Assembly (NCBI RefSeq): GCF_000466405.1
Contig: NZ_KE952937.1
Span: 1-64,000 of the forward strand
Length of the DNA: 64,000 nt
Source of the DNA: Atopobium sp. oral taxon 810 str. F0209
Lineage (GTDB): Bacteria; Actinomycetota; Coriobacteriia; Coriobacteriales; Atopobiaceae
Reading direction: 5' to 3'
Shown in pieces: positions 4,328-37,863 of the stretch. The position numbers and the translations under genes were made by a program. The notes under the pieces are model-generated. The model worked only from the letters and a program-made list of their open reading frames with translations. It was not told the DNA's origin and searched no databases. Position 1 is the first letter of the stretch. Each line of letters starts with the position of its first letter.

Positions 4328-5683
4328 TTAGTGAATGATGAAATGAAAAACGTCATTACCAACAGCAAAGACAAATAGTGCCAGCAACAACGCAAGCCCG
4401 ATATAGCTCAAAATAGCCTTTGCCTTGAGGGATAAAGGTCTCTTAATAATTGCCTGAATTATTTCAATCAAAATCTTGCCACCATCCAAAGGGGGAATGG
4501 GCAACAGATTCATAAAGCCTAAAGACATTGAAATTAACGCAGCAAACATGAGCAAGCTGTGAATACCAGAATGTGCTGCTTCAGATGCCATAACCGAAAT
4601 GCCAACTACTGAGGATGACTGAGAGAGCACTTCAACTGTGTGCTGGGGCATGATAAGGCGTGCAGCAGAGTCTGCAATTATCTGGACATACGACCAAGCC
4701 ATATGCGATGCTTCAAAAAAATTGGGATAGATATGCACGGTCTTAGCAGCAATACCAATCAACTTGACACTTCCATCACGTGGCAAATCGATAGTGGTTT
4801 TTTGTTGCTTGCCAGCACGTTCATAGCTCAACTCAAAAGGCTGAGGATTTTTAAACTCTTTGCCTAGAGCATCGACAATCTCTGGCCAATTTTGTACTGC
4901 GATATCATCAATCGCGGTAATTTTATCGCCCGCCTTAAGGCCAGCTTTTTGTGCCAAGCTATCACTGGTCACACCCCCAATTTCATTGGTACCAGATGCG
5001 ACCTCAAAGCCTGTTGCCATGGAAACACCCACAACAACCAAAAAGGCCAAAACAATATTGACTGCGGGACCTGCAATAAGACAGAAGAAACGCTTAAAGA
5101 AGCCCTTCCCATCGTAGGTACGAGCACGTTCAAACTCAAGAGCTGCCTTTGCATCGACAAGAGGACGTGCCTCCCCTTCTGCTGTACTACCTTTAAGCTC
5201 AAAGTTGTGTCCACGATCATATTCAGTAAGCATTTGAGGATCACGAGCAAGCGTACTTGCGACCAATACGCTTTTTTCACCCTGCTCGAGCATGCCACAA
5301 TCACGAAGAGCGGCCCAATCAAATAAAATGTTCAGATTGGCTTCAACTTCTTCTTCATCGATGGCAAGGGCATCGGCAATCTGAGCTGAGTCAGTACGAC
5401 CTTGCTTTTGCACATAAGCAAAAACTTCAGATAAATGTTTATCACCAGAATTTTCCATACCACAAATCCTGGTATAACCACCTAATAACAGTGGAGTAAC
5501 ACCAAATTCTGTGCCATATTTTTTTGACTTCTTTGCCAAGTGAAAGCGGCTGGGCATACCCAAATAAAACTCTGTGACACGCATACCACAGGCTCGTGCT
5601 GCAAGAAAATGCCCTGCCTCATGGACAGTCACAAGTACAGAGAGAATAAGAAGTCCCCAAAATGCCGCAGATACAGCTCCCAT
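4328..5683 (-). CDS. rseP: Site-2 membrane zinc metalloprotease (M50) with an unusual inserted domain
   Basis: Intramembrane protease that cleaves membrane anchors such as anti-sigma factors. Residues are counted from the ATG at 5681-5683. They show the first membrane segment with zinc motif HEAGH (21-25), a second segment starting near FCLIAGPAVN (about 200), one PDZ domain (about 235-320), and the metal-binding NLLPIPPLDGGK near the C-terminus followed by two more membrane segments. Between the conserved GGYTRICGME and the AGP segment there is an extra stretch of about 110 residues. It includes a helical part (83-130, around TDSAQIADALAIDEEEVEANL) that resembles a winged helix. The start overlaps the dxr stop as TAATG. 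An upstream GTG at 5693-5695 has its purine tract directly against it and is less likely. Confidence 0.92.
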   Translation of the reverse strand: MGAVSAAFWGLLILSVLVTVHEAGHFLAARACGMRVTEFYLGMPSRFHLAKKSKKYGTEFGVTPLLLGGYTRICGMENSGDKHLSEVFAYVQKQGRTDSAQIADALAIDEEEVEANLNILFDWAALRDCGMLEQGEKSVLVASTLARDPQMLTEYDRGHNFELKGSTAEGEARPLVDAKAALEFERARTYDGKGFFKRFFCLIAGPAVNIVLAFLVVVGVSMATGFEVASGTNEIGGVTSDSLAQKAGLKAGDKITAIDDIAVQNWPEIVDALGKEFKNPQPFELSYERAGKQQKTTIDLPRDGSVKLIGIAAKTVHIYPNFFEASHMAWSYVQIIADSAARLIMPQHTVEVLSQSSSVVGISVMASEAAHSGIHSLLMFAALISMSLGFMNLLPIPPLDGGKILIEIIQAIIKRPLSLKAKAILSYIGLALLLALFVFAVGNDVFHFIIH

Positions 5684-31110: not shown

Positions 31111-33706
<2,596 letters not shown>

Positions 33707-33712
33707 TCATCC

Positions 33713-34459
33713 TTACAAAATGATGGAAGCAGCCACAATTAAAATACCTACAGCAAATACAACAATGTCAGCTGCTCCAAAAGGATAGCGCTTGTAGGAA
33801 GAGGAACGAGTACGCAAATAAAAGCCTCTTTCCTCTGCTGCAAGTGCCGTATCATCAGCTTTGGCAACCGAAGAAATCAACAGCGGTGCTGCAAGCGGCA
33901 GCATCAGACGTAGACGTCTAAAAATGCCACCTTCATCAAAAGAGACACCACGGGCAGTCTGAGCTTCAACGATTTTGTTCATCTCATCCGCAAAAATCGG
34001 CACAAAACGAAGAGCAGTGGTAATGGTAAAGGCGTAACGATACGGAACATGCAGCACTTCAACCGCAGCATTTGCAAGGTCAGTAAGCCGAGTCAGAGTG
34101 AGCATTTGTACCAGGGGGATGGCAAAAGCTACTAGGCGCAAAGCAACTAATACACCTGTGGAAAGACCTCGGTCTGTCACAAACAAAAAAATAGCCGTAC
34201 CATCTCGAATAATAAGCACCTGAACCAAGCACATGACCAAGCCCAAACCCAAAAGACCAGAGAGTAGGCTTAGAGTCTCTCTGCCAATACCCGCATAGAG
34301 GCCTATGAGGACTTCCACACCAATGATGCCCATCAATACAAATGGATGAGGCGCTAAAAAAACAGCCACACAAATGCAAAGCGCCAATAAAACCTTGGAA
34401 AGAGGATTAGCTCGATGAAGCAGAGTTGTACCTTCAGAGTATTTCAGAAGACCTGCCAT
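33713..34459 (-). CDS. ecfT: ECF transporter T component (EcfT)
   Basis: Membrane scaffold coupling the ATPases to the substrate-binding S subunit. About six hydrophobic segments are visible. The two coupling-helix Ala-Arg-Gly motifs are AQTARGVSF (about residue 165) and AEERGFYLR (about 215). At 248 aa it is normal. It begins immediately after the ecfA stop codon (TAG-ATG). Together with ecfA and the S gene it forms a complete dedicated (group I) ECF cassette. Confidence 0.93.
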   Translation of the reverse strand: MAGLLKYSEGTTLLHRANPLSKVLLALCICVAVFLAPHPFVLMGIIGVEVLIGLYAGIGRETLSLLSGLLGLGLVMCLVQVLIIRDGTAIFLFVTDRGLSTGVLVALRLVAFAIPLVQMLTLTRLTDLANAAVEVLHVPYRYAFTITTALRFVPIFADEMNKIVEAQTARGVSFDEGGIFRRLRLMLPLAAPLLISSVAKADDTALAAEERGFYLRTRSSSYKRYPFGAADIVVFAVGILIVAASIIL

Positions 34460-36277
34460 CTATCTCACCAGACCTTCCGTAATAGTCACAATATCGCTTA
34501 CCTCAGAGAGACTTTCATAGGCAATATAGCCATCTGCTGCCAACTTGCTAGAAAGACCAAGAATCTGCGGCGGTGCCACAGAAGCTTGCTTCATAAGCTC
34601 AGAATTCTCAAAAAGTTCAACTGGATTGCCGTCAGCACGATTAAAGCCATCAGACATGACAATAATACGACTTGCAAAGTCATAGACAACTTCCATGTCA
34701 TGACACACCATCACAATGGCACAGCCCTGCTCACGCGCCTCTTTGACCGCTCTCATGACTACCATACACTCTTGATAATCAAGACCACTAGTAGGCTCAT
34801 CCAAAATGAGTAACTGTGGGCGCGTTACGATTACACTGGCAAGAGCCACAATCTGCCGCTGACCACGTGAAAGCGAAAACGGAGCTACATCAGCTGGCAA
34901 GGAAAAACGTTTAATCGTTTGTGCTGCTCGAGAATGGGCTATTTGTGTATCAACGCCTAGTAATTCCAAGGAAAAAGCCACCTCATCGAGGACAGTTTCT
35001 TTGCAAATCTGATGATCGGGATCTTGAAAAAGCGTCGAGACATGACGTGCAATCTGGCTCGTACGAGCTACGGATGTATCCAAACCACAGATGCTCACCC
35101 TACCTGCAGAGGGCTTGAGAAGACCATTCATGAGTTTGGTAAGGGTAGTTTTACCTGCACCATTTTGACCAATAATGGCAAGCAGCTCACCAGGATGCAC
35201 CTTAAAATCAATATCTCGCACCGAAGCAGCATGAGGACCATAGGAAAAACTTACATGGTCAAAGGACAAAACTGCCTGTTGCTTGGCCTTGGTGTCAAGT
35301 TCGCGTTGTACTACAAACGCATCTTCGCTCCTTCTGGGCTCAAAATCAGCCATGCGAGGAGCTTTATTATCAGCGATTAAATTCTTAATACCAGTAAATG
35401 CAGCATCCGTAGTCAAAAAAGAACAGCTTTCATCAAGCAAATGCTTTGCATGCAGCTTGTTTGAAACACGGGTAACGCGTGGAGAATCAACACCAATGAA
35501 TTTGAGTTCTTGACGGTGAGTCAAGACGTCTGCGGGGCTACCATCAAGGGCAACAGTTCCTTCGGAAAGTACGAGCATACGCTGACAATATTCAGCAAGC
35601 AGAGCAACTTTTTGCTCCACCACTACCACAGTAATTCCTTGAGTTTGATTGAGTAGACGAAGCGTATCAAATACCTGACGTGATGAAAGAGGATCTAGCG
35701 CTGCCGTAGGCTCGTCCAAAACCAATACACGAGGTTGCAAAGCCAAAATTGCCGCAATTGCAACCTTTTGCTTTTGTCCCCCAGAAAGAGTCGCAATATC
35801 ACGACGAAGCAAATCGGAGACGCCTACTGCTTCAAGCGCCTCAGATACGCGCTGCATTATTTGCTCATGATCAACACCAAAGTTTTCAAGACCATAAAGC
35901 AACTCATCTTCTACGTTTGCAGAAACCATCTGTGCATCAATGTCCTGCAAGACGCTACCAACAATCTGAGAGACATCTGTAAGCTCGACTTCGCAGGTAT
36001 CAATGCCCGCTACCAAACAAGCACCTCTGAACTCACCTTTAAAATGATGAGGTACCGCACCCGATAGCACCGAAGTAAGGGTGGTTTTACCCGCTCCAGA
36101 AGGACCAATGATACCTACGAAGTCACCTTCATTGATGTCAACACTTACATCATGTAACGCATAGGGGCGCAAATGTAGGGAGTTATTTTTTTGTGTTGTA
36201 TCTTCAAAAGCAAAAGATACGTGAGACAACTGAATAACTGGTATGGCAGTCGAATCGCATGCCGTACATACTGACAC
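34460..36277 (-). CDS. ecfA: ECF transporter ATP-binding protein, two fused ABC domains
   Basis: One polypeptide carries both ATPases of the ECF energising module. NBD1: Walker A GPSGAGKTT (58-66), Q loop VLQDIDAQ, signature LSGGQKQ (164), Walker B VLVLDEPTAALD, and switch position Gln222 (VVVVEQKVA) where His is expected. NBD2: Walker A GQNGAGKTT (370-378), FQDPDHQI, signature LSRGQRQ (469), Walker B LLILDEPTSGLD, and switch His526 (VMVCHDMEV). The non-canonical signature of NBD2 and the missing His of NBD1 fall in the same composite ATP site, suggesting one degenerate and one catalytic site. The start is GTG with AAGGGG 6 bases upstream. 605 aa. Confidence 0.94.
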   Translation of the reverse strand: MSVCTACDSTAIPVIQLSHVSFAFEDTTQKNNSLHLRPYALHDVSVDINEGDFVGIIGPSGAGKTTLTSVLSGAVPHHFKGEFRGACLVAGIDTCEVELTDVSQIVGSVLQDIDAQMVSANVEDELLYGLENFGVDHEQIMQRVSEALEAVGVSDLLRRDIATLSGGQKQKVAIAAILALQPRVLVLDEPTAALDPLSSRQVFDTLRLLNQTQGITVVVVEQKVALLAEYCQRMLVLSEGTVALDGSPADVLTHRQELKFIGVDSPRVTRVSNKLHAKHLLDESCSFLTTDAAFTGIKNLIADNKAPRMADFEPRRSEDAFVVQRELDTKAKQQAVLSFDHVSFSYGPHAASVRDIDFKVHPGELLAIIGQNGAGKTTLTKLMNGLLKPSAGRVSICGLDTSVARTSQIARHVSTLFQDPDHQICKETVLDEVAFSLELLGVDTQIAHSRAAQTIKRFSLPADVAPFSLSRGQRQIVALASVIVTRPQLLILDEPTSGLDYQECMVVMRAVKEAREQGCAIVMVCHDMEVVYDFASRIIVMSDGFNRADGNPVELFENSELMKQASVAPPQILGLSSKLAADGYIAYESLSEVSDIVTITEGLVR

Positions 36278-36318
36278 TACAAACCCCTTTCAAAGGATGA
36301 CAGCATCCTTGATACAAA

Positions 36319-36888
36319 CTAACGAGAGATAACCTTACGCAAAGCGGGGTAAAGACCACCTACTACCAAGCCATTGCCCACCGCAGTACCCAGCACAACA
36401 ATTAATAGGGGCAGCATGGAGGCAAAGGCACCTTTAAGCACGATGACGGTTGCAATACAAGCAAAAATAAGACCAGAAACCAAAGTAGTTACAAAACCCA
36501 ATATAAAAGGAAGATATACAGGTGTCTTGTCATCTGCAAATTTATTGACTAACAAAAAGGCTACAGCTGCACCAGGAATATCCGCAACATATTCAACACC
36601 AGGAATAGAAGTAGTAATTTGAATGACGGTAGCTGCGAGAATGCCAAAGATTATGGCTTGAGGCAGGGTCGGCTTAAGCAGCAGGATAGCCAAGCAATAT
36701 GCAGCAATACAAAACTCGGGCTTGATACCTGTAATAGCGAGCATGCCGCCCACTGTTGCATTGAGAATAAAGCCTGCAGCGAGAAGGATAGCTACGAGAA
36801 CTAAAGAACCAACATCGAGTTTGCCCGACTGTGCATGAGTACTTTTGATGGTGCGGACTTTAGCGGCAGTAGACTTCGAATTTTCCAT
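36319..36888 (-). CDS. ECF transporter S component, probable tryptophan-specific (TrpP-like)
   Basis: Substrate-binding membrane subunit of the ECF transporter. About 30 hydrophilic residues precede five to six membrane segments. GIKPEF and the TTSIPGVEY...DIPGAA region resemble the MKPD and TTxFPGGQ...D-PxxA pattern of TrpP-type proteins. That resemblance is moderate and made by eye. The independent evidence for tryptophan is the Trp-codon leader and attenuator just upstream. The start is the ATG at 36886-36888 (AGGAGA 7 bases upstream). An earlier in-frame ATG at 36904-36906 overlaps the ribosome site. It lies 53 bases after the attenuator and leads the S-A-A-T operon. 189 aa. Confidence 0.82.
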   Translation of the reverse strand: MENSKSTAAKVRTIKSTHAQSGKLDVGSLVLVAILLAAGFILNATVGGMLAITGIKPEFCIAAYCLAILLLKPTLPQAIIFGILAATVIQITTSIPGVEYVADIPGAAVAFLLVNKFADDKTPVYLPFILGFVTTLVSGLIFACIATVIVLKGAFASMLPLLIVVLGTAVGNGLVVGGLYPALRKVISR

Positions 36889-36940
36889 GAGAGTTTCTCC
36901 TAACATAAGCTTTGATAGTCAAATTTAGATTGAACGACAC

Positions 36941-36972
36941 AAAAAAACGGCTCCCGGTCAACCCGGAAGTCG
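36941..36972 (-). terminator. Attenuator terminator of the ECF operon
   Basis: On the minus strand CGACTTCCGG-GTTGA-CCGGGAGCCG (arms 36963-36972 and 36948-36957, one A-C mismatch, one G-U) is followed by seven T (36941-36947). It is placed between the leader peptide stop and the S gene and would abort transcription before the structural genes. Confidence 0.85.
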
Positions 36973-37003
36973 TCTGCACAAGTCATGTGGCAGCAAGCGA
37001 CCT
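36967..37003 (-). promoter_or_regulatory. Antiterminator (2:3) hairpin
   Basis: On the minus strand AGGUCG (36998-37003) pairs with CGACUU (36967-36972), and CUGC (36990-36993) with GCAG (36974-36977). The 3' strand uses six bases of the terminator's 5' arm, so the two structures are mutually exclusive. Confidence 0.65.
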
Positions 37004-37035
37004 AGAGTCGACCAAACGAAGACCAGCTACGCCAC
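36987..37035 (-). promoter_or_regulatory. Leader 1:2 (pause) hairpin covering Trp codons
   Basis: GUGGC (37031-37035, within Trp codons 14-15) pairs with GCCAC (36987-36991), helped by nearby AGC/GCU. A ribosome stalled on the Trp codons would prevent this pairing and free segment 2 for the antiterminator. One translating to the UAG at 37002-37004 would cover segment 2. Confidence 0.55.
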
Positions 37036-37076
37036 CACCAGTTCATGTCCTTAGAAGTGCTTATCTGAGTCATCAT
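37002..37076 (-). CDS. Tryptophan-rich leader peptide of a trp-type attenuator
   Basis: A 24-codon gene reads MMTQISTSKDMN, then WWW, R, S, W and SSFGRL, ending in TAG. Four of 24 residues are Trp (codons 13, 14, 15 and 18). AAAGGAG sits 7 bases before the ATG at 37074-37076, and an extended -10 promoter lies about 40 bases upstream. Downstream, the 1:2, 2:3 and 3:4 hairpins end in a U-run before the ECF S gene. This is the architecture of ribosome-mediated trp attenuation, where scarce charged tRNA-Trp stalls the ribosome, the antiterminator forms and the transporter is made. Trp-run leaders are known for trp biosynthetic operons in enterics and actinobacteria. Here the leader serves a transport operon. 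The alternative of chance is unlikely given the ribosome site, the Trp run and the terminator together. Confidence 0.9.
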   Translation of the reverse strand: MMTQISTSKDMNWWWRSWSSFGRL

Positions 37077-37115
37077 GGTCAAACTCCTTTCTTCACTCGA
37101 TTTCATGTTGCTGGG

Positions 37116-37121
37116 ACTATA
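37116..37121 (-). promoter_or_regulatory. Extended -10 promoter of the leader/ECF operon
   Basis: The minus strand reads TGATATAGT, matching TGnTATAAT except for one base. There is no convincing -35, as is usual for extended -10 promoters. The predicted start is near 37109, about 33 bases before the leader peptide. Confidence 0.6.
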
Positions 37122-37204
37122 TCAAAGACCAAGCTTAGATTGAGTCTCATTTCACATACGTTTATGACTTGAAACAAAGTGTTCAAGCAATACAGCCAAA
37201 CACA

Positions 37205-37238
37205 TAGACAAAACCCCACCGCAATAGCGATGGGGTTT
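37205..37238 (-). terminator. Terminator of rplU-rpmA
   Basis: AAACCCCATCGC-TATT-GCGGTGGGGTTT on the minus strand (arms 37227-37238 and 37211-37222) is followed by TTGTCT. It separates rpmA from the ECF cassette. Confidence 0.8.
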
Positions 37239-37256
37239 GATCATACAACTTGCACT

Positions 37257-37508
37257 CTACTCAGCAGGCACAACGTTAACGACGTGCTTGGCACCCTTAA
37301 CAAACTGCACGGTGCCATCCTGCAGTGCAAACAGCGTGTCATCCTTGCCACGACCAACGCCTGTACCAGGAGTAATGTGCGTGCCACGCTGACGAACAAT
37401 AATCTGACCAGTCTTAATTGTCTGACCACCAAAAATCTTGGTACCAAGACGCTGAGCGTTGGAATCGCGACCATTGCGCGAAGACGCTTGGCCCTTTTTA
37501 TGTGCCAT
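37257..37508 (-). CDS. rpmA: 50S ribosomal protein L27
   Basis: L27, near the peptidyl-transferase centre. The sequence starts [20 protein letters not shown] and contains [21 protein letters not shown], given here as family blocks of normal order. At 83 aa it is normal. There is no Firmicutes-type N-terminal cleavage extension (the protein starts directly at AHKKG). The start is the ATG at 37506-37508. The longer open frame upstream is a shadow of rplU. Confidence 0.97.
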
Positions 37509-37554
37509 AGTACTACCTGCCTTACTCGAAAAAACTAATGGGAATAGCGCGAGC

Positions 37555-37863
37555 CTACGCGGGGATAGAAGTAATCTGCAGGCGCGTAAGCTGCTGCCTG
37601 TGACCCTTGGTACGGTGATAACGCTTGCGCTTGTGGAGCTTGAAGACAATAACCTTCTTGCCCTTATGCTGATCGACCACTTCAGCGGTAACCTTTTTAC
37701 CCTCGAGCTCAGCAGGAGCGACAACGGTTTTTGCGTCGTCAGCAAGCATCAGGACGTCGAGGCTGACCTTGTCGCCAGGCTGCGCGTTGAGCTTTTCGAC
37801 GTCAATGACGTCGCCCTCGGCAACCTTATACTGCTTGCCACCAGTCGTAACGATTGCGTACAT
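37555..37863 (-). CDS. rplU: 50S ribosomal protein L21
   Basis: L21. The N-terminus is [20 protein letters not shown], and the C-terminal signature is [20 protein letters not shown]. At 102 aa it is normal. The ATG at 37861-37863 follows AAGGG by 7 bases. It leads rplU-rpmA. No ysxB-like cysteine protease gene lies between them, consistent with the uncleaved L27 form. Confidence 0.97.

Follow-up and report, generated by a model that had tools for sequence, protein, structure and literature searches.

What controls the ECF transporter cassette that follows rpmA (ribosomal protein L27) in Atopobium sp. oral taxon 810, and what does this transporter import? In the window, the stretch of 64,000 nucleotides analysed here, the minus-strand interval between rpmA and the cassette holds a short leader gene, then a terminator, and then the start codon of the S component. 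Attenuation through a leader peptide with tandem Trp codons is a classical mechanism, and a sequence-only reading of the locus had recognized its logic here. Our preferred account, to which we assign a probability of about 0.9, is that a ribosome-mediated transcription attenuator controls a cassette that imports tryptophan.

The elements are collected in Table 1. The leader gene described by the sequence-only reading, its four Trp codons, its ribosome site, the hairpin overlapping the Trp codons, and the terminator with seven T upstream of the S gene were all recovered, so that the locus has a short leader ORF with a start codon, a ribosome site, and tandem Trp codons, predicted to be translated, and an intrinsic terminator between that ORF and the first gene. 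Two of the earlier assignments hold in part. An extended -10 can be read upstream of the leader, but a two-hexamer promoter scan lists no site there. The antiterminator placed at 36967-37003 coincides exactly with an inner helix, but an outer helix of 9 bp was missed and the full antiterminator is larger. Terminator-like sites number 2 against 0.3 expected in shuffles, and the whole 171-nt leader folded alone gives z = -2.2.

Table 1. Positions of the leader elements and cassette genes in the window, and of T-boxes upstream of trp genes in four relatives.
Feature	Position	Strand	Basis or remark
Presumed leader promoter, extended -10 TGATATAGT	37116-37124	-	Read directly from the sequence; putative
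Shine-Dalgarno AAAGGAG of the leader peptide	37084-37090	-	Read from the sequence
Leader peptide gene, 24 aa, MMTQISTSKDMNWWWRSWSSFGRL, Trp at residues 13-15 and 18, stop TAG 37002-37004	37002-37076	-	ORF translation; NWWW......GR. kept in relatives
Three tandem Trp codons TGGTGGTGG, predicted sensing codons	37032-37040	-	Sequence and relatives
Fourth Trp codon, not conserved	37023-37025	-	
Protector hairpin P1, 5' arm, overlapping Trp codons 14-15	37026-37035	-	Covariation in relatives
Protector hairpin P1, 3' arm, directly after the stop codon	36987-36998	-	Covariation in relatives
Antiterminator outer helix, 5' arm GGUCGACUC, last codons of the leader gene	37005-37013	-	Pairing in relatives, clade swap, folding
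Antiterminator outer helix, 3' arm GGGUUGACC, terminator loop and start of terminator 3' arm	36956-36964	-	Pairing in relatives, clade swap, folding
Antiterminator inner helix, 5' arm AGGUCG	36998-37003	-	Predicted
Antiterminator inner helix, 3' arm CGACUU (= terminator 5' arm)	36967-36972	-	Predicted
Intrinsic terminator hairpin CUUCCGG-GUUGA-CCGGGAG	36951-36969	-	Terminator scan and covariation in relatives
Terminator T7 tract	36941-36947	-	52 nt before S-component ATG 36888
ECF S component, TrpP family PF17099	36319-36888	-	Pfam, 32.9 bits vs cut-off 27.2
Fused double ECF ATPase (A-A')	34460-36277	-	TIGR04520 and TIGR04521, both above cut-off
ECF T component (CbiQ/EcfT family)	33713-34459	-	PF02361, 98.5 bits
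Coriobacteriia trp-gene T-boxes, UGG specifier	L177:2260-2517, L178:6938-7222, L179:2693-2948, L180:13327-13585(-)		

Two exclusive structures can be drawn for the leader RNA. In the terminating state, the protector hairpin P1 pairs the region of Trp codons 14-15 with sequence past the stop codon, and the terminator forms; in the antiterminating state, the outer helix is continued by the inner helix. Across 77 distinct relatives, P1 and the terminator together are 92% paired with double changes in 15 of 18 pairs, a level reached by 0/500 column shuffles, a control that does not remove relatedness, and slid controls give at most 56%. P1 alone has 83.7% of cells paired and double changes in 6/8 pairs, and the terminator alone 98.3% and 9/10. 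The outer antiterminator helix reaches 89% pairing in relatives, and slid controls stay at or below 60%; its covariation is modest in the Coriobacteriia because it is so conserved there. Its arms co-change between clades, with four unrelated sequences: GGUCGA/UUGACC in most, GUUUACUCU/AGGGUAAAC in Gardnerella, CGGGUU/AAUCCG in the family here called f6, and ACUCUGA/UCAGAGU in Atopobium sp. P4126. When arms are exchanged between clades, the mean is -15.9 kcal/mol for own-clade pairs and -8.6 for cross-clade ones, and none of the 24 possible assignments does better than the true one. Since mononucleotide shuffles of the 5' segment are not decisive for single sequences, it is this exchange that carries the case for the antiterminator. 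The inner helix is conserved in relatives, with covariation not above column shuffles.

The leader peptide is conserved where attenuation would require it. Conserved tandem TGG codons at orthologous cassettes and covarying stems had been named beforehand as the signs to look for, and both are present: at 82 of 84 distinct loci a start codon and ribosome site stand in frame with a Trp run (79 WWW, 2 WW, and 1 WAW), while the codons flanking the run vary freely. Although the stop codon ranges from +18 to +45, the antiterminator arm starts 25-29 nt past the first Trp codon in all clades tested, and this fixed spacing puts it directly ahead of a ribosome that has stalled there. The conserved "GR" near the peptide end is a by-product of the RNA motif GGUCGA, as Slackia shows: with its earlier stop codon, the motif falls outside the leader ORF, downstream of it.

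Switching was modelled by masking the RNA beneath a ribosome and folding the remainder. With the ribosome stalled at the first or third Trp codon of the window leader, the probability of the antiterminator is ~1, its 5' arm being free; with the ribosome at the stop codon this arm is covered and the probability of the terminator is 1.0. Without a ribosome the antiterminator is favoured, so that P1, despite its covariation, does not block the antiterminator and is not an effective default off-switch in the window model. Among the relatives, many have a full-length terminator that prevails at equilibrium despite the stall, so that a switch in these could only be kinetic. The scheme that these structures suggest would start at the leader's own promoter after rpmA, with a ribosome translating the leader peptide as the RNA emerges. 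When Trp-tRNA is scarce, the ribosome would stall on codons 13-15, the 5' arm of the outer helix just past it would pair with the terminator loop and 3' arm, no terminator would form, and the S-AA-T cassette would be transcribed and import tryptophan. When Trp-tRNA is plentiful, the ribosome would reach the stop codon and cover that arm, and the terminator would form and stop transcription.

The element recurs in many related genomes. In a first set of 60 relatives, 30 have the S component, and inspection of the upstream regions in both orientations gave an NWWW or AWWW leader followed by a terminator at 24 loci. A covariance model built from 22 relatives' leaders (R1) scores 91.5 bits at the window site (E ~1.7e-20), its sole match in that genome, and the window element is therefore not a chance match. 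Of the 140 genomes of the family, 69 carry R1 (E up to 1e-3). In the class, represented by 398 genomes, R1 is found in 130 (E up to 1e-4) and the S component in 205; both are present in 123, with R1 upstream of the orthologous cassette. Among genomes with the S component, R1 was found in 58/63 of the Atopobiaceae, the family of the window, and in 61/61 of the family that contains Collinsella. Judged from these genomes, a putative Trp-sensing switch is conserved in more than 100 related species. Across the phylum, R1 has only two further matches; these matches outside the class (E ~1e-5) are plain terminators without Trp leaders, as is a second match in one other genome.

Seven genomes have R1 without the S component: in one the site lies at a contig end, and the other six are Slackia-type (family f2), with R1 upstream of an NSS-family sodium symporter (Pfam SNF) whose best solved relative is MhsT (4us3). 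In Slackia piriformis the two transporters occur together, and an attenuator precedes each of them. In family f6, R1 precedes a gene for a TrpB-like enzyme, trpB2 (PRK12391, 654 bits), which is followed by the S component. At eight Gardnerella loci, S components with WWW attenuators nest inside the Atopobiaceae clade of the S tree, suggesting that the cassette was transferred together with its switch; branches are long there and the placement is not firm. Olsenella profusa (L076 ~4600-5000; L167 is the same contig) has kept the cassette and a terminator with the UUGACC arm and lost the Trp leader peptide, perhaps a decaying attenuator; its genome also has trpA.

Orthologues that keep the transporter without Trp codons could have counted against a Trp switch. 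They mostly carry a T-box with a Trp specifier instead, which fits the remark in the sequence-only reading that TrpP-type S components in Firmicutes are usually linked to TRAP or T-box control. Sampled leader-less S loci in Eggerthellaceae and Clostridia have T-boxes with E of 1e-10 to 1e-14, below the Rfam gathering score, and all 14 leader-less loci that were read have UGG as the specifier triplet. A tree of 62 S proteins places the window protein in a clade of 45 linked to the attenuator; two rows marked as uncertain in it do carry R1, and O. profusa has lost the leader. Its sister group has 14 rows with a T-box and 3 with an attenuator, so that at least four changes are needed. For the window leader, an Rfam search gave neither a T-box model match with a specifier loop nor a match to any other family. 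The trp operons or trpA clusters of four relatives showed no WW leader, and T-boxes with UGG specifiers lie upstream of their trp genes (Table 1). These score 69-79 bits against the Rfam gathering score of 93, and default Rfam scans miss them for this reason. With T-boxes on trp operons and the attenuator on uptake, two different ways of sensing tRNA-Trp would operate within these genomes.

The transporter had been called an orphan, which holds only in part, since Pfam TrpP reaches its S component above the cut-off. The window score is modest, and only 16 of 27 relatives match TrpP at E 0.01. A profile search of the S component against solved structures gave no match. The AlphaFold model has six helices (pLDDT 87), and its first 11 Foldseek matches in the PDB are ECF S components or ECF complexes, PanT, RibU, and ThiT among them, with probabilities of 0.82-1.00 and weak E values of at least 0.03. 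The AxxxA motif, which binds the T component (PMC11109136), is found in helix 1 as A33 and A37, of which A37 is invariant.

Several independent signs link the cassette to tryptophan: R1 on an NSS symporter, of a family that includes the demonstrated Trp transporter TnaT (PMC2494555), the R1-trpB2-S operon, the UGG T-boxes, membership in Pfam TrpP, and the lack of synthesis genes in the window genome. In that genome, which is 99.5% complete, neither IGPS nor TrpB was found, and the one trpA-like gene present is divergent and not part of a trp operon; the organism is therefore predicted to be a Trp auxotroph. The TrpA-like protein (104 bits; L174:6939-7745(-), contig 30) is encoded among BtpA-like, alcohol dehydrogenase, sugar-kinase-like, and ABC permease genes, and this weak match is probably not a tryptophan synthase. 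Across the class, trpA is present in 35 of 205 genomes with the S component and 108 of the 193 others, counts that are uncorrected for relatedness. Taken together, these genomic signs make the ECF cassette very probably a tryptophan importer. The sequence-only reading had allowed for tryptophan or a direct precursor; in the window genome the choice likely narrows to tryptophan, because indole or anthranilate would be unusable without IGPS and TrpB.

Counting against the main reading are the relatives whose terminator prevails at equilibrium, the preference of the ribosome-free window leader for the antiterminator, the loss of the leader peptide in O. profusa, and the modest TrpP matches of the S component with no profile match to a solved structure. 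The main reading also has to be weighed against three others. Intrinsic terminators are common, and outside the class R1 finds plain ones, which could favour an ordinary terminator beside a small ORF that is rich in Trp by accident, the cassette not being regulated by tryptophan. This has almost no probability left: it is contradicted by the conservation of the element, by Trp runs that are in frame with ribosome sites at nearly every distinct locus, by a spacing to the antiterminator arm that stays fixed while the stop codon moves, and by the covariation of the stems. It is also very improbable that the leader acts mainly at another level, whether by Rho-dependent termination, translational coupling, or as a trans-acting small RNA. 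Mycobacterium cys leaders do lack a terminator, and Rho has been proposed for them (PMC1262725), and the window has weak, sub-threshold Rfam matches to small RNAs, at chance level; the window-type leader, however, has a strong intrinsic terminator with a U tract that is conserved and covaries, and the distance from leader to gene differs among relatives.

The remaining alternative accepts the attenuator and its sensing of Trp-tRNA and changes the cargo, with the cassette importing some other compound for which demand goes up when Trp runs short; candidates are indole, anthranilate, a Trp peptide, and aromatic amino acids other than Trp. Leader control reports a signal and not a substrate, the NSS family has broad specificity according to the T-box transporter paper (PMC2494555), and the two tandem S components of many relatives could differ in substrate. 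Such a cargo is nevertheless unlikely, given that indole or anthranilate could not become Trp in the window genome, that the S component belongs to Pfam TrpP, and that the same element precedes a symporter of the family of TnaT. Tandem S components, ~50% identical and behind one attenuator, were seen in eleven genomes, and the second could have another specificity.

Ribosome-mediated attenuation of a tryptophan-import cassette is not a new mechanism but the classical one; what is new is the RNA family and the kind of target. Attenuators have been predicted for the trp operons and trpS of Corynebacterium and Streptomyces, and these likewise have a leader with two or three tandem UGG codons, an antiterminator, and a GC-rich terminator with a U tract (PMC1262725). 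They control trp biosynthesis or trpS, whereas the window-type element precedes transporters and trpB2 in Coriobacteriia and Gardnerella, and their conserved triple is gGCC-rGCy-GGCC where the window-type element has GGUCGA with UUGACC. The proteobacterial trpL leader (Rfam RF00513, Trp_leader) also uses stalling at Trp codons to select antiterminator or terminator but has other target genes, and its covariance model has no match in the window at the gathering score or E = 10. Trp T-box leaders (RF00230) sense the charging of the same tRNA; Eggerthellaceae and Clostridia use them to regulate the orthologous cassette, and relatives have them on the trp operon. Unlike the window element, they bind uncharged tRNA directly, with no leader peptide or ribosome. 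In Bacillus subtilis, TrpP (YhaG, PF17099) is under TRAP control. The window S component is a member of the same family by the Pfam cut-off, but it is joined to a dedicated ECF module with a fused ATPase and to leader-peptide attenuation.

In the openly accessible literature, a search found no earlier report of such an attenuator in Coriobacteriia, nor of one that controls an ECF or NSS transporter. It seems probable that the element is an undescribed RNA family serving Trp acquisition rather than synthesis, which would act on three unrelated kinds of gene (ECF-TrpP, NSS symporter, and trpB2), have moved with its cassette into Gardnerella, and have traded places with Trp T-boxes, on one and the same transporter, four times or more, with biosynthesis under a T-box and uptake under the attenuator in Olsenella-type genomes. 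Converging independent evidence would thereby give a substrate to a group of ECF transporters across Coriobacteriia, Gardnerella, and some Clostridia, many of whose hosts probably depend on external tryptophan, as they have no trpA. Leader-peptide attenuation would reach beyond the synthesis of amino acids to their import, within a lineage for which it seems undescribed, and the replacement of one tRNA-charge sensor by an unrelated one on the same gene offers a natural experiment.

The setting of the cassette may also matter for its neighbours. In the window (32225-37745) it lies between rplU-rpmA and obgE-proB-nadD, all on the same strand, and three other loci (L171-L173) likewise have the L21 gene upstream and obgE downstream. 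The start of obgE is only ~37 nt past the T component, and obgE may therefore be partly under the same attenuator.
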